From Deltaproteobacteria bacterium (lineage in GTDB: Bacteria > Desulfobacterota > Desulfuromonadia > Geobacterales > Pseudopelobacteraceae): a stretch of DNA of 64,000 nt. The position numbers were made by a program, and so were the translations under genes. Positions 53,487 to 64,000 of this stretch are shown here, piece by piece. Under the pieces are notes generated by a model. It had not been told where the DNA came from. It did not search any database and saw only the letters and a program-made list of their open reading frames with translations. Each line of letters begins with the position of its first letter. Positions within the stretch are counted from its first letter, which is position 1. The DNA lies in assembly GCA_016182975.1 (NCBI GenBank), contig JACPFJ010000014.1, positions 1 to 64,000 of the forward strand. Reading direction: 5' to 3'.

Positions 53487-55002
53487 TCTCACCAAACGCT
53501 TCGGCGACCTGACCGCGGTGGACTCCCTCTCGCTCTCCGTCCCCGAGGGGGAGCTGTTCGGGCTGGTCGGCTCGGACGGGGCCGGCAAGACCACCACCCT
53601 GCGGATGCTGGCAGGGGTGCTCGACCCGAGCGGAGGCGCACTTGCCGTGCTGGGGCGGCCCTTCCCGGCCGGGTCCGAGGGGGTGCGGGGGCATATCGGC
53701 TACATGAGCCAGCGCTTCGGGCTCTACCCCGACCTGACCGTGGCGGAGAACATCCGCTTCTACGCCGACGTCTTCGGCGTGGCTGCGGCCGAGCGGAAGA
53801 GCCGCGGCGAGCGGCTGCTGGCCTTCAGCGGGTTGGCGCCGTTCAGCGGGCGCCAGGCGGGCAGGCTCTCGGGGGGAATGAAACAGAAGCTGGGGCTCTG
53901 CTGCGCCCTGATCCACAAGCCGCGACTGCTCCTTCTGGACGAACCGACCAACGGTGTGGACCCGCTCTCGCGCCGCGATTTCTGGCGCATCCTGCGGGAT
54001 CTGCACAGCGAGGGGGTCACCGTGGTGGTGGCCACCGCCTACCTGGACGAGGCCGAGCGTTGCGACCGGGTCGGCCTGATCCACCATGGCCGCCTGATCG
54101 CCTGCGGTACTCCGGCGGAACTGACCGGCGGGGGGACGACCTCCCTGGAGGAGTTGGTCATCGAGCGAATCAGCGGGGAGACCTCACCTGCTTCTGCAAT
54201 AGTGGGATTTCACCGCATCCCCCACCCTCTCCCTGAGGGCGAGGGGGCTCACCCCGCAGTTTCCCTCGACAGGCTCACCAAGCGCTTCGACCACTTCACC
54301 GCCGTGGACGCCATCAGCCTGACGGTGCCCAAAGGCCAGGTCTTCGGCTTCCTGGGACCGAACGGCGCCGGCAAGTCCACCACCATCCGCATGCTCTGCG
54401 GTATCCTCTCCCCCACCTCCGGGAGCGGCTCGGTGGCCGGGTTCGATATCTCCAGGGAGCCGGAGCGGATCAAGGAGAACATCGGCTACATGAGCCAGCG
54501 TTTCTCGCTCTACGAGGACCTGACCGTGGAGGAGAACATCGCCTTCTACGCCGGTGTCTACCGTCTGCCGGCGGCCAGGCGGCGCGCGCGGAGCGAATGG
54601 GTGATCGCGATGGCCGGATTGAGCGAGCGGCGCACGTCCCTGGCGGGCGAGCTCTCCGGCGGCTGGCGCCAGCGGCTGGCCCTGGGGTGCGCCATCCTGC
54701 ACGAACCCCCGATCGTCTTCCTCGACGAGCCGACCTCGGGGGTCGATCCGCTCTCGCGCCGCCGTTTCTGGGAGTTGATCTATACCCTGGCCGAGGGGGG
54801 GGTGACGGTCTTCGTCACCACCCACTACATGGACGAGGCAGACTACTGTGACCGGCTGGCCATGATCTACCGCGGTGAGCTGGTGGCGGTGGGGACCCCG
54901 GAGGAGCTGAAGCGTTCGCGCGCGGCAGCGGGGGGGGAGCTGCCGACGCTGGAGGAGGTTTTCATCGGCCTGATCGAGGAGCGGGACCGGCAGGGCGATT
55001 AG
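53464..55002 (+). CDS. Tandem ABC transporter ATPase (YbhF-like)
   Basis: The 512-residue protein contains two complete nucleotide-binding domains. Domain 1 (about 5-235) has GSDGAGKTTT, LSGGMKQKL and LLLLDEPTNGVDP. Domain 2 (about 270-510) has GPNGAGKSTT, LSGGWRQRL and IVFLDEPTSGVDP. In YbhFGSR-type exporters two permease genes follow, but here none is present. The linker between the domains (residues about 240-268) includes HPLPEGEG, encoded by an inserted-looking palindrome. Confidence 0.92.
   Translation: MNAIQADSLTKRFGDLTAVDSLSLSVPEGELFGLVGSDGAGKTTTLRMLAGVLDPSGGALAVLGRPFPAGSEGVRGHIGYMSQRFGLYPDLTVAENIRFYADVFGVAAAERKSRGERLLAFSGLAPFSGRQAGRLSGGMKQKLGLCCALIHKPRLLLLDEPTNGVDPLSRRDFWRILRDLHSEGVTVVVATAYLDEAERCDRVGLIHHGRLIACGTPAELTGGGTTSLEELVIERISGETSPASAIVGFHRIPHPLPEGEGAHPAVSLDRLTKRFDHFTAVDAISLTVPKGQVFGFLGPNGAGKSTTIRMLCGILSPTSGSGSVAGFDISREPERIKENIGYMSQRFSLYEDLTVEENIAFYAGVYRLPAARRRARSEWVIAMAGLSERRTSLAGELSGGWRQRLALGCAILHEPPIVFLDEPTSGVDPLSRRRFWELIYTLAEGGVTVFVTTHYMDEADYCDRLAMIYRGELVAVGTPEELKRSRAAAGGELPTLEEVFIGLIEERDRQGD
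54222..54252. repeat. Palindromic element inside the ABC linker
   Basis: CCCTCTCCCT (about 54226-54235) and AGGGCGAGGG (about 54236-54246) mirror each other with one mismatch. Such CCCTC-CCT palindromes are widespread dispersed repeats, and PHPLPEGEG-type peptides commonly mark them. It keeps the ATPase frame open. Confidence 0.55.
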
Positions 55003-55233
55003 CAGACGTTCCGGCCATTGGAACCAATTCCGGGGATCAACCTTCCAGGTTTACCCCCGGAAACCGGCGGCAGACATGCCTTGCAGCCTGTTTTTTTGCG
55101 TATGGGCGGGGTTAAAATGGTGGCGCGGGTGGCGGGGGGTGGTGTATATATGGTAGGAGATTTGAAGGGTTGGATTAATTGAACGTATCCCATATCAAAA
55201 CCCGGAAGAACTATACTATTGGCGAGGTGCACA

Positions 55234-55672: not shown

Positions 55673-55726
55673 AGCTGTTTATAAAAGCTCCACTTGATCA
55701 ATCGTAGTTTTATGAGATCAGTGCCA

Positions 55727-56812
55727 ATGGATGATCGCATGGCTAATAGAATTGAATTTAATGCAATCGACATCTACTGCGGCTCCGGGGCCGTCACAGA
55801 AGGCCTGAAAGCCGAGGGCATAGCTGTTCTCGCGGCAATAGACAATGATCCCATCGCTTGTGAAACCTACCGGCTCAACCACCCTGAAGTTCATCTCTTC
55901 CCATCCGACATCCGCACACTGAATCCGGCTACCTTGCGGAAAGATATTGGTTTCACGGGACGACTCGATTTGTTGGTTGTCTGTGCTCCCTGCCAACCGT
56001 TCAGCAGCCAGAACCGGAAACGTTCAACTGGTGATCACCGAGCTGATTTGGTTCTTGAAAGCCTCAAATTCATTAAAGAATTCGAGCCCGAGGTTGTGTT
56101 TTTCGAGAACGTCCCAGGCATAGCAATCTTCGGTCCGTTACACAGTCTGCGTCATAAACTGGCTGAACTCGGCTATGCCCTCGCGGAACCCATGACCCTG
56201 AACGCAGCTGATTGCGAGGTACCCCAACGTCGAGAACGCTGCATCATGGTCGCGGCCCGAAACCGGGAATGTATCACTACATTTTATGAGTCCATCAATT
56301 CCCGTCCCACGGTTACCGTTCGTCAGGCCATCGGCGGATTGAGGCAGCTTTGTTCCGGTGAACGCGATCCCGACGATCCGCTGCATTTTGCCCGGAATCA
56401 TCAGCCGATTGTCCTTCAGCGTTTACAGCACATTCCGAAAGATGGTGGGAGCCGTCTGTCATTACCGCCGGAGTTGGAGCTTGAATGTCACAAAGGGCGG
56501 AAGAACGATTTCCCGGATGTGTACGGCCGTATGAGATGGGATGATGTTGCACCTACTTTGACTACCGGCTGTACGGACGTCACGAAAGGGCGCTTTGCCC
56601 ATCCCCGGGATAACCGGGCCATTACGCTCAGAGAGGCGGCCCTGCTCCAATCCTTTCCCCTCCAGTATCGTTTTTTCGGCAACTCCGGCCAGATTGCCCG
56701 CCAGATCGGCAACGCCGTGCCCGTGAACATGATCCGGACCCTTGCACCATCGCTCAAGCATTGTTTGCGGAAAACTCGAACTCCCGAAATAAAAGCCGTT
56801 TCCGGCCAATGA
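55727..56812 (+). CDS. DNA (cytosine-5-)-methyltransferase
   Basis: The 361-residue C5-methyltransferase transfers a methyl group from S-adenosylmethionine to cytosine. All core motifs are present: I (AIDIYCGSGAVTEGL), IV with the catalytic Cys (VVCAPCQPFSSQNR), VI (FFENVPGI), VIII (PQRRERCIMVA), IX (RPTVTVRQAIGGL) and X (ARQIGNAVPVNM). The recognition region between VIII and X is short, so the target site cannot be read. The start is uncertain: the ATG at 55727 is used, 55739 has a slightly better ribosome site, and 55694 or 55712 would be longer. The vsr-type gene follows after 7 bases. Confidence 0.93.
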   Translation: MDDRMANRIEFNAIDIYCGSGAVTEGLKAEGIAVLAAIDNDPIACETYRLNHPEVHLFPSDIRTLNPATLRKDIGFTGRLDLLVVCAPCQPFSSQNRKRSTGDHRADLVLESLKFIKEFEPEVVFFENVPGIAIFGPLHSLRHKLAELGYALAEPMTLNAADCEVPQRRERCIMVAARNRECITTFYESINSRPTVTVRQAIGGLRQLCSGERDPDDPLHFARNHQPIVLQRLQHIPKDGGSRLSLPPELELECHKGRKNDFPDVYGRMRWDDVAPTLTTGCTDVTKGRFAHPRDNRAITLREAALLQSFPLQYRFFGNSGQIARQIGNAVPVNMIRTLAPSLKHCLRKTRTPEIKAVSGQ

Positions 56813-56819
56813 CCGCTAA

Positions 56820-57260
56820 ATGAAGGGGCGTCCGGCGGCCATATCCAAAACAGTTTCGGGGGCCATGCGCAGCATGCCGGAGCACTCCACCGGACCGGAA
56901 ATGGCGGTGCGTCGATTGCTTTACGAAAAGGGCCTGCGTTATCGGGTTCAGTATCCGGTTCCGGGAGCACCAAGGCGTTCCATCGACATCGCTTTTCCCC
57001 GCAAGAAAGTGGCCGTCTTTATTGATGGGTGTTTTTGGCACGGTTGCTCAGAGCATCGGAACATTCCTGCACATAACCGCGATTGGTGGCAGAACAAGAT
57101 TGATCAGAACCGGTCACGGGATCGGGATACGGATGAAAAACTCCGCGATGCCGGGTGGCATGTTCTCAGGTATTGGGAGCATGATCTGGCGGAGCGGATA
57201 GTTATTGAAGTGCATGAAGTAATTGGAACGAGAGAGAAACGCAGGAGTAAACATGGCTAA
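56820..57260 (+). CDS. vsr: Vsr-type DNA endonuclease
   Basis: The 146-residue protein has the Vsr fold core: RSIDIAFPRKKVAVFIDGCFWHGC with the catalytic Asp, the second Asp and the WH pair, then HNRDWWQNKIDQN and WHVLRYWEHDL. Classical Vsr nicks 5' of the T in T:G mismatches left by deamination of 5-methylcytosine, consistent with its position after the methyltransferase. In some conflict operons Vsr-like nucleases act as restriction effectors instead. No separate restriction endonuclease gene is visible. It overlaps the ATPase gene by 8 bases. Confidence 0.92.
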   Translation: MKGRPAAISKTVSGAMRSMPEHSTGPEMAVRRLLYEKGLRYRVQYPVPGAPRRSIDIAFPRKKVAVFIDGCFWHGCSEHRNIPAHNRDWWQNKIDQNRSRDRDTDEKLRDAGWHVLRYWEHDLAERIVIEVHEVIGTREKRRSKHG

Positions 57261-60243
57261 GCTTCGGGTTAGAGCCCGTGCAGTGGACATGCTGGGGCGT
57301 CAGCAGATAGCCGGTATTCCCACTGCTATACACGAGCTTTTTAAGAACGCCCATGACGCCTATGCGGAACGGGCGGAAGTCGACTATTTTCGACGAACGC
57401 GGGTCCTGGTCCTTCGTGATGATGGATATGGCATGACCCGCGACGATGTGGAAAATCGTTGGCTGACACTGGGAACCGAAAGCCGCATCAAGGCCAACCG
57501 GCCGGATTCCATTGAAAACTGGACCGGTCCCAAGAATCTCCCACGCCGCGTTATCATGGGCGAAAAAGGTATCGGTCGTCTAGCTATCGCCGTTATCGCC
57601 CCAATTACATTGCTTCTCACCCGTGCGGTACGCCTTGATGGGCTGCATGACCTCGTTGTTGCTTTGGTGCATTGGGGGTTATTTGAACAGCCCGGCCTCG
57701 AAATCGGGATGATTGACGTACCTATTTTGGAGATATCAAGCGGAAATCTCCCCACTCGTGAAAACGTTCAAGAACTCATAAGTCGTGTTCGACTGAATAT
57801 CAGAGAGTTGCAAGATGAACTGGATGAGACGGAATTCGTTCGACTCAATAGTGAATTGGACAAAGTTAAAGTCATCGCACCTGACAAATTTGATGTCACG
57901 CTCCGCAAATTATTAAAAAAAGATGAAGCCCCTTTGTCTCTGAGCGGGGATGGATATGGCACTCACTTTATCCTGTTACCCACAGCGGAAGAATTGAATG
58001 ATGATATCGATGGTCGCAAAGCCAAAGACCCATCAAATATTGACCGGTTTCTATTGGGGTTCTCCAACACGATGACTGGTGAGGCACCCGTCATCCGGAC
58101 GGAATTTCGTGATCACCACCTCGATGAAGAACCGAACGAACTTATCGGCCCGGCAAATTTTTTCACTCCTCAAGAATTCAATAACTCCGACCATCACATA
58201 TCCGGAGTGTTTGACGAATATGGCCAATTTAATGGCACGGTTCGGATTTACGGTGAGTCGCACCCTTTTGTATGTAATTGGCCCGAAGGTCGAGGAAAGA
58301 CAATTGCATGTGGTCCTTTCTCTCTCGAATTTTCCTATGTTATGGGGCGCCCAACCGAGACCCGTTTAAAGCTTGATGACTTCAAAGCGGTTACGGATAA
58401 ATTGGATCGTATCGGGGGATTGTACATTTACAGAAACGGTATTCGAATTCTTCCTTACGGAAATACTGACTACGATTTTCTTGAAATCGAGAAGAGGCGG
58501 ACCAAGAGTGCAGCTGATTGGTTTTTCTCTTATCGTCGCATGATGGGATATATCGCTATCAGCCATGAAGATAATGGGAAATTGCATGAGAAGGCCGGGC
58601 GGGAAGGGTTCAGACAAAATCAAGCGTACCGTGAATTCAGGTATGCCTTGATCAATCTGTTCGAGCGCCTAGCCCTAGAGTTTTTCAGAGAAACTGCACC
58701 GCAAAGTGATGCGTATTTGGAAAAACGGAACGAACTCATATCGCAATCCATCCTATTGAAAAAACAAAAGAAAAAGGCCGACGAACGCAGAAAAGAATTC
58801 AAAAAACTAATTGACGCTTTTTTTAAGGCATACGAGGCAAGCGAATTCGAGCGTAGGGCTGAAAAAATCAAAACGAGGGTTGAAAGAAAGCTGGAGCGTT
58901 TGCTCACTCTGGAAGATGATGGTGCACTAGCTCTTGGGGTGCGGGAGCTTGAAGCCGATACGGGAGGAAGACTGCGCGAGCTAGAAGATGATGTCACAAT
59001 TACCAAACCTCGTGGATTGGCATTAACCACCAGACTTGAAAAAGACTGGGCTTCCTATCAGCGTGTTTCCAACGACGTGCGTGAGAAAATCAGTACTCCT
59101 CTTCGCAAAGAAATAAACGGGCTAATTCGCGATGCAACCTCAAGCAGAATTACTGATGCGCAGCGCCGCGAGACCGTAATGGAGCTACTGGAAAAACAGA
59201 AATCCGAAATTGTCCGGGATTTATCAGCTTTGAGAAACGATACATACTCTGCCCAGGAAAAGTTGCGTACTACTCTTAAAGAAGTTGTTCGGGAAGAATT
59301 CGGCCAATTTCGTGAAACCGTGGAGAAATTACTGATTGATTTCACGCGGCAAAGTGCTCAGGACCCATCTAGTATGGAAGAGGCTCGAACCACATTGGAG
59401 CAGGAACTGGTACGCATCCGTGAGCGGGAGACATCTCTACTTGAAGCTATTAAGCGGCAAATGATCGAATTCGCCGAAGGACTGAGAGAGCGGGAAACCG
59501 TGGATGACCGAGTGGGCGCTTTGGAACAACGTGCCCAGCGGCTCGAAGAGCAACTAGAATTTTATTCCGACTTCGCACAAATGGGCATAGCCGTGGGTAT
59601 TCTGCAACACGAATTTGAAAAGACCGCACGCAATATGCGTGTTGCCGTGAAGGACTTGAAACCGTGGGCTGATGGAACCCCCGATCTGAAAAAAGTTTAC
59701 GTCAGACTACGCAATTCATTTGACCACTTGGATGATTATCTGAAGCTGCTTGACCCACTTGGCCGCCGGCTCAACCGGACAAAGATCGAGTTGTCAGGTG
59801 ACGAGATTCGCCTGCATCTCCGCCGAATTTTCCGCAGAATGCTCGAAGAGAACAGCATCGAATTGGTTGCAACGGATGAGTTTCTGTTGCGTAAAGTCAA
59901 ATGTATCTCCTCATCAATTTTGGCGGCGTTTGTCAATGTGGTGGATAATGCCATTTACTGGGTTATTAATGGCGCAAAAGGCGAGAAAGTCATCCGCCTG
60001 GGGGTCGATAACGATGGATACCTGATTTCGAATAGCGGCCCCGGTATTGAGGAGCGTTTGCGGGAGAGAATTTTTGAATTCGGTGAATCTTCTAAGCCGG
60101 GAGGGCGTGGAATGGGGCTTGCTATATCCCGCGATACCCTCCAACGAGAAGGCTTCGACTTGGAGTTGCTACAAGCAGGGGCAAATATTGAGCCGGTATT
60201 TCGTATAAAAACCACATTATCCGAAAATGGGGAGGAGTCTTAG
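57253..60243 (+). CDS. Double-GHKL protein: MutL/MORC/Hsp90-like ATPase N-terminus, histidine-kinase-like C-terminus
   Basis: The 996-residue protein starts at the ATG at 57253 after AGGAG, overlapping vsr. N-terminal GHKL domain: HELFKNAHDAY (residues 27-37), DDGYGM (56-61) and MGEKGIGRLA (102-111), as in MutL, MORC and Hsp90. The middle, about 490-760, is Lys/Glu-rich and coiled-coil-like. Near residue 786, GILQHEFEKTARNM resembles an H-box with His786. A second GHKL domain follows: N-box NVVDNA (895-900), NSGPGI (927-932, where D of the usual DxGxG is Asn), an F-box (IFEFGESSKPGG) and G2 GRGMGLAIS (951-959). It is AT-richer than flanking genes. The receiver gene follows after 2 bases, so phosphotransfer between them is plausible. 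Confidence 0.85.
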   Translation: MAKLRVRARAVDMLGRQQIAGIPTAIHELFKNAHDAYAERAEVDYFRRTRVLVLRDDGYGMTRDDVENRWLTLGTESRIKANRPDSIENWTGPKNLPRRVIMGEKGIGRLAIAVIAPITLLLTRAVRLDGLHDLVVALVHWGLFEQPGLEIGMIDVPILEISSGNLPTRENVQELISRVRLNIRELQDELDETEFVRLNSELDKVKVIAPDKFDVTLRKLLKKDEAPLSLSGDGYGTHFILLPTAEELNDDIDGRKAKDPSNIDRFLLGFSNTMTGEAPVIRTEFRDHHLDEEPNELIGPANFFTPQEFNNSDHHISGVFDEYGQFNGTVRIYGESHPFVCNWPEGRGKTIACGPFSLEFSYVMGRPTETRLKLDDFKAVTDKLDRIGGLYIYRNGIRILPYGNTDYDFLEIEKRRTKSAADWFFSYRRMMGYIAISHEDNGKLHEKAGREGFRQNQAYREFRYALINLFERLALEFFRETAPQSDAYLEKRNELISQSILLKKQKKKADERRKEFKKLIDAFFKAYEASEFERRAEKIKTRVERKLERLLTLEDDGALALGVRELEADTGGRLRELEDDVTITKPRGLALTTRLEKDWASYQRVSNDVREKISTPLRKEINGLIRDATSSRITDAQRRETVMELLEKQKSEIVRDLSALRNDTYSAQEKLRTTLKEVVREEFGQFRETVEKLLIDFTRQSAQDPSSMEEARTTLEQELVRIRERETSLLEAIKRQMIEFAEGLRERETVDDRVGALEQRAQRLEEQLEFYSDFAQMGIAVGILQHEFEKTARNMRVAVKDLKPWADGTPDLKKVYVRLRNSFDHLDDYLKLLDPLGRRLNRTKIELSGDEIRLHLRRIFRRMLEENSIELVATDEFLLRKVKCISSSILAAFVNVVDNAIYWVINGAKGEKVIRLGVDNDGYLISNSGPGIEERLRERIFEFGESSKPGGRGMGLAISRDTLQREGFDLELLQAGANIEPVFRIKTTLSENGEES

Positions 60244-60245
60244 AG

Positions 60246-61934
60246 ATGCCTGAGCCTCAACCAGTTGATATGAATGCCATGTGGCATGAACATTGTCTCA
60301 AGGCTGTTCGGAAATTCGTTATGAATGCAGTTGTGGTTGATAATCAACCAGTACTCAATAATAAATTGGTTGCTAGAGTTGCAGCAGCTGTTGACGAAGG
60401 TATGGGTGAACCAGTGACAGAAGAGGTTGCCGACAAGCCGATGGCCGACACAATAAACGACCATGAACTTAATATACAAAAAGTGTCAGATGCCTTTGCA
60501 GAACAAGATATTGCCTGCGCTTTTGTGTTTCCTGACGACAGAGAAACAGATGATGAACTGAAACATAAGCGGATAATAGCTGCTGCCGTTCCGTCGGATA
60601 TTGTTATTCTGGACTGGTTTCTGAAAGATGGAGACTCAAGTTTAACCAAAAGGGCGCTAAAGAGCATTGCCGAGAGAGATTCGTCAGAAAAAGGTCGCAT
60701 GCGCTTGATCTGTATTTATACCGGTCAGCCGGACATCGTAGAGGTTACACGCGATGCAATAAGGGCGTTACGGGAAGGTGGCCTCGATTTTTGTGAAGTC
60801 AACGAGGCGGAAGGTACAGCCAAAGGAAACCACCACAGTTTGCTCGTGCTCAACAAGCAAGCTGTTACCGGCGTTGAACTGCCCAGGAAAATCCTTGAAG
60901 CATTCACAGGGTTAGCCGATGGCCTTCTTCCTTCATTTGCTTTAGCTGCTGTAGCCGCGGTACGTAGAAACATGCATCACATCATTTCACGCTTTCCATC
61001 ATCTCTTGACGACTCATTTGTCGCAAATCTGCTAATCACCGATCCGCCCGAGGACGTAACGGAATTGATTCGGGAGCTATTCATTTCTGAATGTGATACG
61101 GCACTCGGTCTTGAAAGGGTCGCAGATGACTATCTCAACAAAAAAAGAATTAACGACTGGCTTATTGTCAAAAAGAAGCCTGATAAAGTTGAAGAATATG
61201 AACTTGATAACAAAGAAAAAACTAAGATAAAAATTAACAAGGATTTTGTTTTGGCTCTACTTGAGCATGGGCTTACTGAAGATAAAGTCCGTTTTTTCGA
61301 TGGAATGCTACATGACTTTAAAGACAAAAAACGCAATAAGGTTTCACAAGCTCTCCATGGGGGGAAAGCAAAGGCAAAGGAAGGTGAGGGGCAATTTGCA
61401 CGGTTTGTTTCCTTGAAACGAGATACTTCCGCTACCACTAAATTTACAGAAGAGTGGAAACCTTCTTTAACATTGGGAACTATTGTAAGAAATCTTTCCA
61501 GCAAAAAATATTTTTACTGTATTACGCCTGCATGCGACACTATTCGTCTTAAAGGGAAAAAACGCTCGTTTGTTATGATTGCGCTTGAAAAACCAGAAGG
61601 AAAACCAAGTCTTCTTGTGCCGGTTAAAGGTGGTGTAGAAAAATTCAAAATAAATACAAAGCCTTATTGCGTAAGAACATTTGAATTTTCAGGTGATGAG
61701 TCAAATGGCCGAATAATGGCCCAGCTAATTACTGATGAAGAACAAAAAAAGACCTTTATTTTTGAAGCATCAGGGATTGGCAAAGGTAAAACCATTAAAT
61801 TTGAATGGCTCGGTGAAGTTAGGCGAAACAGAGCAAATAGAGATATGGCCGAATTGAACAGAGAATGGCTCAGGTTGGGCATTAAAGATTCGGAGTATTT
61901 GAGACTTGCGGCCAAAGGGTATGCTGAGCTTTAA
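60246..61934 (+). CDS. Atypical receiver-domain protein with unknown C-terminal half
   Basis: The 562-residue protein has an N-terminal receiver-like fold: acidic Asp32 (AVVVDNQP), candidate phosphoacceptor Asp123 (DIVILDWFLKDGDSS) and Thr159 (LICIYTGQP). The gap of about 90 residues between the first two is twice that of classic receivers, and the usual Lys is not clear. This fits the divergent receiver family that I recall as Pfam Response_reg_2, seen in conflict operons. No HTH output is visible. The C-terminal half includes LTLGTIVRNLSS and ITPACDTIRLKG (about 426-437). AT-rich, tightly linked to the GHKL gene, and likely its partner. Confidence 0.75.
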   Translation: MPEPQPVDMNAMWHEHCLKAVRKFVMNAVVVDNQPVLNNKLVARVAAAVDEGMGEPVTEEVADKPMADTINDHELNIQKVSDAFAEQDIACAFVFPDDRETDDELKHKRIIAAAVPSDIVILDWFLKDGDSSLTKRALKSIAERDSSEKGRMRLICIYTGQPDIVEVTRDAIRALREGGLDFCEVNEAEGTAKGNHHSLLVLNKQAVTGVELPRKILEAFTGLADGLLPSFALAAVAAVRRNMHHIISRFPSSLDDSFVANLLITDPPEDVTELIRELFISECDTALGLERVADDYLNKKRINDWLIVKKKPDKVEEYELDNKEKTKIKINKDFVLALLEHGLTEDKVRFFDGMLHDFKDKKRNKVSQALHGGKAKAKEGEGQFARFVSLKRDTSATTKFTEEWKPSLTLGTIVRNLSSKKYFYCITPACDTIRLKGKKRSFVMIALEKPEGKPSLLVPVKGGVEKFKINTKPYCVRTFEFSGDESNGRIMAQLITDEEQKKTFIFEASGIGKGKTIKFEWLGEVRRNRANRDMAELNREWLRLGIKDSEYLRLAAKGYAEL

Positions 61935-61952: not shown

Positions 61953-64000
61953 ATGCCCATAGAAACCCATTTCGACATCCCCTTCATCTCCTCCCTGGCC
62001 CTGCGTGAAAAACAGATCCAGCAGAACTACCGGCCCATCATCGCCGTGCACAAGTGGTTCGCCCGGCGGCCGGGGACCCTGTTCCGTGGCCTGATCCTTT
62101 CCGAATACGGCGACCGGCCGCTTAAAGAGGCATTCTTCTCCGCCAACGACTTCAAAGGGATCACCATTGCCGACCCCTTCATGGGGGGCGGCACCCCGCT
62201 GATCGAGGCCAACCGGATGGGGTGCGACGTGCTGGGGTACGACATCAACCCCATGGCGTGGTGGATCGTCAACCGCGAGATCGAACACCTGGACCTGGAC
62301 GCCTACCGCACGGCCGCCACGGGCCTGATGACGGCGCTGGAAAAGCAGGTCGGCGACCTCTATCGTACCACCTGCCTGAAGTGCGGCTCGGACCAGGCCC
62401 ACGTGAAATACTTTCTCTGGGTGAAACAAAAAGAATGCCCCCACTGCGACAAGGAGTTCGACCTCTTCCCCGGCTACCTGCTGTCCGAGGACAAGCGCCA
62501 CCCCCTGAACGTGCTGGTATGCGCCGCCTGCGGCGACCTGAACGAGGTTAAGGACCGCAAACACCCCGGCCACTGCGCCTCATGCGCGGCGGAACTGCGC
62601 CTGGAAGGGCCGGCCAAACGGAACAAATGCGCCTGCCCCCATTGCAGTAAAATCTCAGCCTATCCCAGCCCGGATGCCGGTCCGCCCCAGCACCGCATGT
62701 TCGCCATGGAGTATTACTGCCGCGCCTGCAAACCCAACCACAGCGGCCGCTTCTTCAAACGGCCCGACACCAGCGACCTGGCCCGCTACGAACAGGCTGC
62801 GGCCATGCTAAGGACAGCTGAAGCCCACTTCGTGCCGGAGGACGCGATCCCCCCCGGTGACGAGACCGGCAGGCTCCTGCGCTGGGGGTACCGCCGCTAC
62901 CGGGAGATGTTCAACGAACGGCAACTGCTGGGCTTGGAACTGAGCTGCCGGGCCATCACGGCCGAACGGGACGAGCGGGTCCGAAACGCCCTGATCACCA
63001 ACCTATCGGACCTGCTGCGCTACCAGAACATGGTCTGCCGCTACGACACCATGGCCCTCAAGTCGCTTGATATCTTCTCGGTGCACGGCTTCCCGGTGGG
63101 GCTGGTGCAGTGCGAATCCAACCTGCTGGGCATTGCCAACGGCGGCGGGGTGAGTGTGGGAAGCGGCGGCTGGTCCAACATCATCGAGAAGTACATGAAG
63201 GCCAAGCAGTACTGCGACACCCCCTTCGAGACCCGCCACGACGGCGCCCGCAAGGTGCAGGTGCCGATCAGGGGGGAGTGGATCGGCGACAGCAGGGGTG
63301 ATGAAAACGGTCGTACAGTCCGCATCCTCTGCCAGAGCGCCACCACAACCGACCTGCCGCCTGACAGCCTGGACGGCGTGTTCACCGACCCACCCTACTT
63401 CGGCAACGTGCAGTACGCGGAACTGATGGACTTCTGCTACGTCTGGCTGCGAAAATTGGCGGATGGGGCCATCCCGGCCCTTCAATCCCATACCACCCGC
63501 AACCGGGACGAACTGACCGGCAACGTCACCATGGAGCGGGGGTTGGCGCACTTCACCGAGGGGCTGGCGGCGGTCTTCGGCAACATGGCCCGCGGTCTGA
63601 AACCGGGCCGTCCCCTGGCCTTCACCTACCACCACAACCGCCTCGATGCCTACCACCCGGTGGCGGTGGCGATCCTGGATGCCGGTCTGGCCTGTACCGC
63701 CTCGCTCCCCTGCCCGGCCGAGATGGGCGCCTCGATCCACATCAGCGGCACCGCCTCGTCTGTGGTGGATACGGTCTTCGTCTGCCGTTCCACCGGCGTC
63801 ATCTCCCGGCGGACTCTGGCCAAGACAGCCGGAGAATTCGCACAGCTCGTGACGGAAGATCTGGACAAGCTTCGATTGGGTGGCCTCAAGCCGACGCAAG
63901 GGGATACCCGCTGCATCATCTTCGGACATCTGGTGCGGATGACCGTCTGGGAGTTGAGGGCATCGTGGAATCCGGCTCTTTCCGCACAGCAGAAACTGGC
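61953..64000 (+). CDS. DUF1156-type zinc-ribbon amino-methyltransferase (5' part)
   Basis: The gene is open to the window edge (at least 682 codons). It begins FISSLALREKQIQQNYRPI and AVHKWFARRPGTLFRGLIL, the DUF1156 start. Motif I is ADPFMGGGTPLIEANRMG near residue 73, and motif IV is TDPPYFGN with Asp479, typical of N6-adenine or N4-cytosine methyltransferases. Several CxxC pairs between them (CLKCGSD, CPHCDKEF, CAACGD, CASCAAE, CPHCSK, YYCRACK) form zinc ribbons. It follows the receiver gene by 18 bases but is GC-rich, so it may be a separate module. DUF1156 proteins often sit with DUF499 ATPases in defence islands, and any such partner would lie beyond 64000. Confidence 0.85.
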   Translation, partial: MPIETHFDIPFISSLALREKQIQQNYRPIIAVHKWFARRPGTLFRGLILSEYGDRPLKEAFFSANDFKGITIADPFMGGGTPLIEANRMGCDVLGYDINPMAWWIVNREIEHLDLDAYRTAATGLMTALEKQVGDLYRTTCLKCGSDQAHVKYFLWVKQKECPHCDKEFDLFPGYLLSEDKRHPLNVLVCAACGDLNEVKDRKHPGHCASCAAELRLEGPAKRNKCACPHCSKISAYPSPDAGPPQHRMFAMEYYCRACKPNHSGRFFKRPDTSDLARYEQAAAMLRTAEAHFVPEDAIPPGDETGRLLRWGYRRYREMFNERQLLGLELSCRAITAERDERVRNALITNLSDLLRYQNMVCRYDTMALKSLDIFSVHGFPVGLVQCESNLLGIANGGGVSVGSGGWSNIIEKYMKAKQYCDTPFETRHDGARKVQVPIRGEWIGDSRGDENGRTVRILCQSATTTDLPPDSLDGVFTDPPYFGNVQYAELMDFCYVWLRKLADGAIPALQSHTTRNRDELTGNVTMERGLAHFTEGLAAVFGNMARGLKPGRPLAFTYHHNRLDAYHPVAVAILDAGLACTASLPCPAEMGASIHISGTASSVVDTVFVCRSTGVISRRTLAKTAGEFAQLVTEDLDKLRLGGLKPTQGDTRCIIFGHLVRMTVWELRASWNPALSAQQKL

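Follow-up and report, generated by a model that had tools for sequence, protein, structure and literature searches.

A Response_reg_2 protein with an unnamed two-domain output half in a conserved C5-methylase, kinase and receiver cassette

The response-regulator-like protein (RR) encoded in the 64,000-nucleotide stretch of DNA analysed here (the window) belongs to a conserved unit formed by a C5-cytosine methylase, a kinase and a receiver, often together with Vsr. The order of the genes in this unit is fixed, the kinase and the receiver carry invariant chemistry and diverge together, and no other gene is conserved beside them. The C-terminal half of the RR, present in all the homologues aligned, is conserved, matches no known family and probably forms the working end of a methylation-linked defence cassette; it would be the effector, switched on via phosphotransfer from the kinase.

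The receiver domain and the output half of the RR

The start codon of the RR lies 2 bp past the stop codon of the upstream GHKL gene (Table 1). The Pfam model PF19192 (Response_reg_2) matches residues 24-206 with an E-value of 1.5e-32 and 113.6 bits, against a curated cut-off of 27, a match far beyond chance which indicates that the receiver domain is real; it is the sole Pfam report at E <= 1, and the canonical receiver model PF00072 gave no match to the RR. In an alignment of 84 homologues, from which all residue counts for the RR are taken, Asp32, Asp118 and Asp123 are each invariant (84/84), and position 159 is occupied by Thr in 77 sequences and by Ser in seven. Positions 32-33 are Asp-Asp in 69/84 and Asp-Asn in 12/84; the second acidic residue of beta-1 is an Asn (Asn33; codon at 60342-60344) in the window and in 11 relatives, a replacement that may alter metal binding. 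The full-length AlphaFold model (75-sequence alignment; mean pLDDT 89, pTM 0.85) has predicted strands at residues 27-31, 119-123, 153-159 and 197-203, the ends of which fall at or beside Asp32, Asp123, Thr159 and Lys204, and a loop following beta-1 that spans about 45 residues and is poorly ordered (mean pLDDT of about 55 over residues 41-70). An earlier, sequence-only reading of this DNA had assigned Asp32, Asp123 and Thr159 to receiver chemistry with an expanded spacing. The PF19192 match and the conservation of the three residues bear out the assignment, to which Lys204, a receiver residue absent from that list, can be added (83/84), and the loop accounts for the spacing; Asp123, on the conservation of which that reading had staked itself, does not vary. 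The same reading had called the receiver divergent: it is a real receiver domain, but one already catalogued, as Pfam PF19192, and described in 2021 (PMC8011034).

Table 1. Features of the cassette in the window, with the evidence for each
Feature	Position	Strand	Evidence
C5-cytosine DNA methyltransferase	55694..56812	+	PF00145 E 2.3e-52, TIGR00675
Vsr mismatch endonuclease	56820..57260	+	TIGR00632 E 1e-31
Partner kinase, HATPase_c_3 + HEF_HK + HATPase_c, 996 aa from ATG	57253..60243	+	Pfam; catalytic residues 67/67
His786 codon, HEF box of the kinase, predicted phospho-donor	59608..59610	+	67/67; aligned with the His of sensor kinase 3a0r_A
Response-regulator-like protein (RR), 562 aa	60246..61934	+	PF19192; open frame
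Response_reg_2 receiver domain, residues 24-206	60315..60863	+	Pfam, whole-genome family search, AlphaFold
Asp123 codon, predicted phospho-acceptor	60612..60614	+	Invariant, 84/84
Lys204 codon, conserved receiver Lys	60855..60857	+	83/84
Helical middle domain, residues 209-389	60870..61412	+	AlphaFold secondary structure; R240 and D255 conserved
Beta-rich C-terminal domain, residues 390-545, no family match	61413..61880	+	AlphaFold of the part alone
C-x4-C-D motif CITPACD, residues 425-431	61518..61538	+	C425 84/84, C430 84/84, D431 80/84

Residues 207-562 gave no match by sequence in Pfam, NCBIfam, PADLOC, PHROGs or the PDB, and contain no recognisable signature of a nuclease or of another catalytic activity. 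Searched against the PADLOC models of anti-phage systems (2023 library), the RR matched no family at E <= 1, and comparison of the C-terminal half with viral structures returned no usable match. This half of the protein is found in all 84 of the RR homologues aligned. The sequence-only reading had treated the C-terminal 350 residues as one domain that it could not name; the region indeed has no name, but it consists of two domains, one helical and one beta-rich, and residues 385-562 modelled alone reached a pLDDT of 92 and a pTM of 0.84 (AlphaFold). The ITPACD motif singled out in that reading is real and, with the Cys that precedes it, runs from Cys425 to Asp431 within the best-conserved part of the C-terminal half; Gly411 (84/84) and Arg434 (79/84) complete the list of the best-conserved residues in the beta domain. 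The lack of a DNA-binding output is likewise upheld, since neither such a domain nor any other known output domain matches residues 207-562, and the profile search that had been suggested, in which a known unrelated enzyme might have emerged, returned none. When run on 196 related genomes, a profile of the C-terminal domain retrieved Response_reg_2 proteins only, so that the output domain goes with the receiver; no copy of the C-terminal domain standing by itself turned up in these genomes or among the neighbouring ORFs. Faster change of the C-terminal half within the RR was also considered, and is not general (mean identities of 0.58, 0.60 and 0.58 for three segments).

The partner kinase and the make-up, spread and setting of the cassette

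The link drawn in the sequence-only reading between the RR and the upstream ATPase holds, as the adjacent gene carries HEF_HK, the catalogued partner of Response_reg_2. The encoded kinase (PF19191 HEF_HK, E 1.8e-28; PF02518, E 8.3e-10), for which an alternative start is possible at a TTG at 57223, aligns through its C-terminal region with solved sensor kinases. His786, Asn895, Asn899, Gly929 and Gly951/953/955, in the H, N and G boxes, are all invariant (67/67), as are Asn32, Asp35, Asp56, Gly58, Gly60 and Gly106 in the N-terminal ATPase; position 927, corresponding to the G1 Asp, is an Asn in 36/67. Judged from its sequence, the kinase is intact, with a phospho-acceptor His (His786) and a histidine-kinase catalytic domain. 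The BbrUII/HgiDII model (NF050001) matches the N-terminus in at least 28 of 29 sequences, a lower bound in that the alignment includes a fragment (L085) without this part of the kinase, and MutL models match the N-terminus too.

We compared 85 loci, mostly retrieved by similarity to the RR of the window, in which gene calling followed a simple longest-ORF rule; the operon and neighbour counts are therefore approximate. The kinase adjoins the RR in 74/74 loci with enough upstream sequence, a C5-methylase lies no more than 5 kb upstream or 2 kb downstream in 59/60, and Vsr was seen in 52/85 loci and not in the other 33. A Pfam search yielded six highly divergent receivers, of which five also stand in a full methylase-kinase-receiver row; for the sixth the contig ends within the kinase gene. 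Among 48 complete operons, with enough flank on which to judge, 20 comprise only the C5-methylase, Vsr, the kinase and the RR; measured against a Type II restriction-modification (R-M) system, the methylase is present and the endonuclease absent, both in these 20 and in the E. coli locus (see below). A scan of 95 nearby downstream genes gave HNH models in four, REase_II in two and EcoRII-C in one, and revealed no restriction gene conserved on that side of the cassette; on the upstream side, type I specificity subunits (5/78) were the most frequent known neighbours among the best 25 families listed. Receiver and kinase distances are correlated at 0.92 and those of receiver and methylase, given the kinase, at 0.07, which indicates that the kinase, not the methylase, is the partner with which the receiver pairs. 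Of the three proteins the receiver changes fastest: in the nearest relative, from Geobacter argillaceus (L044), it is 58% identical to that of the window, compared with 88% for the kinase and 88% for the methylase.

Judged by record titles, the cassette is spread over several bacterial phyla. In E. coli strain 4/0 it is represented by exactly three genes in a row, amid broken mobile-element genes, annotated as DNA cytosine methyltransferase, ATP-binding protein and response regulator receiver domain, with no endonuclease annotated at the locus and no Vsr; its receiver, in translation, shows the same motifs, CIQPLCDSVRL among them. With a criterion of at least 99% identity over at least 80% of the cassette length, this cassette was found in 194 of 5426 complete E. 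coli genomes (3.6%). Records of sequenced phages had no match to the RR family. Single-sequence scans of genome and viral collections returned nothing and alignment-based scans returned matches; four IMG/VR contigs (L124-L127) carry the receiver family and three of these also encode methylase and kinase, which suggests that the cassette is sometimes found on virus-like or mobile DNA. On the Pseudomonas syringae plasmid NZ_ON146836.1 (L042, 6963-11286) the kinase-receiver pair is broken into several ORFs and adjoins an IS5 transposase.

The four cassette genes have a GC content of 0.42-0.54, against 0.645-0.685 for the flanking exporter genes. The ABC ATPase ends at 55002 and the permease starts at contig position 65253, and since the two genes are 0-46 bp apart in four relatives, the block was inserted into an exporter operon. 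The insert between the ATPase and the permease of this ABC-2 exporter measures about 10.2 kb (window position 55003 to contig C24 position 65252). Another insert, of about 15 kb, occupies the same junction in a relative (G014), so that the junction may be an insertion hot spot. The insert in the window also holds a DUF1156/HmaB-like adenine methylase (window 61953-64000, continuing to contig position 64145; L022:7953-10145; PADLOC HmaB, E 3.2e-23) that begins 19 bp after the receiver gene and, with a GC content of 0.635 against 0.42, looks like a separate module. Just past the window, 9 bp after this methylase, lies the gene for a 348-aa protein (contig 64155-65201; L022:10155-11201) without Pfam or PADLOC match, in which we noted an unannotated PD-(D/E)xK-like stretch (APDF...VIIEAK); this protein is possibly the restriction partner of the DUF1156-like methylase.

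A methylase-guarded defence system and the alternatives

The best explanation, and one in which our confidence is about even, is that the RR serves as the output subunit in a restriction-like defence cassette guarded by the methylase, with the kinase and the receiver as its working arm, switched by phosphotransfer to Asp123. The methylase would mark the host DNA. The kinase combines a GHKL ATPase at its N-terminus, akin to MutL and to HgiDII-type restriction enzymes, with a histidine-kinase core at its C-terminus; it would sense a foreign or unmodified-DNA cue and autophosphorylate on His786. Transfer of the phosphate from there to Asp123 of the RR would then change the state of the helical domain and of the C-terminal beta domain with its C-x4-C-D motif, which would act on nucleic acid or on another target; Vsr would repair the T:G mismatches that arise by deamination of 5-methylcytosine. 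Phosphotransfer, the cue, the activity of the output half and defence itself are what we infer here from anatomy and context. The invariant His-Asp chemistry of kinase and receiver argues for phosphotransfer, and three features, a cassette that is closed and lacks a restriction gene, an ATPase akin to restriction-linked GHKL ATPases (PMC2292703) and a fast-changing receiver, argue that kinase and receiver are a working arm rather than a regulator. The insertion of a low-GC block into the exporter operon also speaks for the defence reading; in the window, the lack of a restriction gene is not absolute, given the possible PD-(D/E)xK nuclease gene two genes downstream. Counting against this explanation are residues 207-562, which show no catalytic signature that can be recognised, Asn33 in place of the usual second Asp, and the way the loci were gathered, mostly by similarity to the RR and with simple gene calling. 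We put forward only tentatively a more specific proposal, that the C5-methylase, the GHKL kinase and the receiver make up a restriction system that works with no classical endonuclease, in which methylation discriminates, His-Asp phosphotransfer decides and a new C-x4-C-D enzyme domain executes. If the cassette is restriction-like, it joins two-component signalling to restriction-modification via an output domain that nobody has named; we are aware of no immune system of the restriction type that works through a two-component phosphorelay. The three-gene cassette of E. coli (NZ_CP023849.1, 4847466-4853158) and the invariant residues named here make its function directly testable.

Three other explanations were weighed. 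Kinase and receiver could be a regulatory two-component pair, the kinase sensing a cytoplasmic cue and the receiver controlling the neighbouring methylase or other R-M genes, in their expression or their activity, as suggested before (PMC8011034). Two-component systems usually regulate, and R-M genes are enriched around the HEF_HK/Response_reg_2 pair (PMC8011034); however, no DNA-binding output domain was found in the RR, many operons have no restriction gene to regulate, and the output half is one conserved family rather than the varied outputs usual for regulators, and we regard this explanation as unlikely. It is also conceivable, if quite improbable, that kinase and receiver join the methylase and Vsr as structural partners within a MutL-like DNA-handling complex, devoted to 5-methylcytosine-linked repair or remodelling without functional phosphotransfer. 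The MutL matches at the kinase N-terminus, the frequency of Vsr and the Asn at the G1 Asp position 927 in over half of the kinases would fit such a complex, whereas the invariant His786 and Asp123 and the near-invariant Lys204 are hard to explain without phosphotransfer, and Vsr was not seen in the E. coli locus or in more than a third of the loci compared. The last alternative, in our view very improbable, is that the C-terminal domain is a MazF-like RNase and that phosphorylation releases a translation-blocking toxin, so that infected cells stop growing. In Foldseek, this domain matches MazF chains with the highest probability (5ck9_B, probability 0.95, E 0.11, TM 0.50 on MazF; 1ub4_A, probability 0.90, TM 0.54 on MazF), but their E-values are 0.1 or worse with an rmsd of 6-8 A, hhalign against 13 PemK/MazF sequences gave a probability of 0.3%, and the MazF/PemK model PF02452 had no Pfam match in the domain. 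We know of no counterpart in MazF of the C-x4-C-D motif. We rejected homology to MazF on the profile comparison, which gives it no support; the folds may loosely resemble each other.

Comparison with known systems

In Detocs, a phage defence system, a kinase signals, as proposed here, to a receiver to which the effector is fused; unlike the cassette, Detocs includes a relay protein as intermediate, its effector has been named and it lacks a methylase. GHKL ATPases have precedents in phage defence in VcSduA (Shedu), a GHKL-nuclease system in which the ATPase controls the defence effector (PMC12137116), and in the paraMORCs, as paraMORC/MORC proteins have an N-terminal GHKL ATPase and occur in methylase/Vsr neighbourhoods (Iyer et al., 2008; PMC2292703). 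In those systems helicases or fused nucleases are found, whereas in the window the ATPase is joined to a histidine-kinase core and the effector would be a receiver protein encoded separately, in which no nuclease can be recognised. The first 117 residues of the kinase match the ATPase part of the BbrUII/HgiDII GHKL restriction enzymes (NF050001), but the match covers about 110 of 659 model positions, scores 60 bits against a cut-off of 550 and includes no endonuclease part.

Closest is the HEF_HK/Response_reg_2 pair itself (PF19191, PF19192), described as a two-component-like system near R-M genes (Bellieny-Rabelo et al., 2021; PMC8011034); of the papers searched, no other mentions PF19192 or Response_reg_2. 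The two families were linked in 91.6% of cases in 644 regions, with C5-methylases and Vsr frequent; the receiver protein was reported without any other known domain, its output half was left undescribed and the pair was read as a probable R-M regulator (PMC8011034). The locus in the window, with the same families, the same adjacency and the same association with a C5-methylase and Vsr, is a member of this catalogued pair. What is newly given here is the delimitation of the output half, the naming of its invariant residues and the finding that in many operons the methylase-kinase-receiver cassette stands alone.
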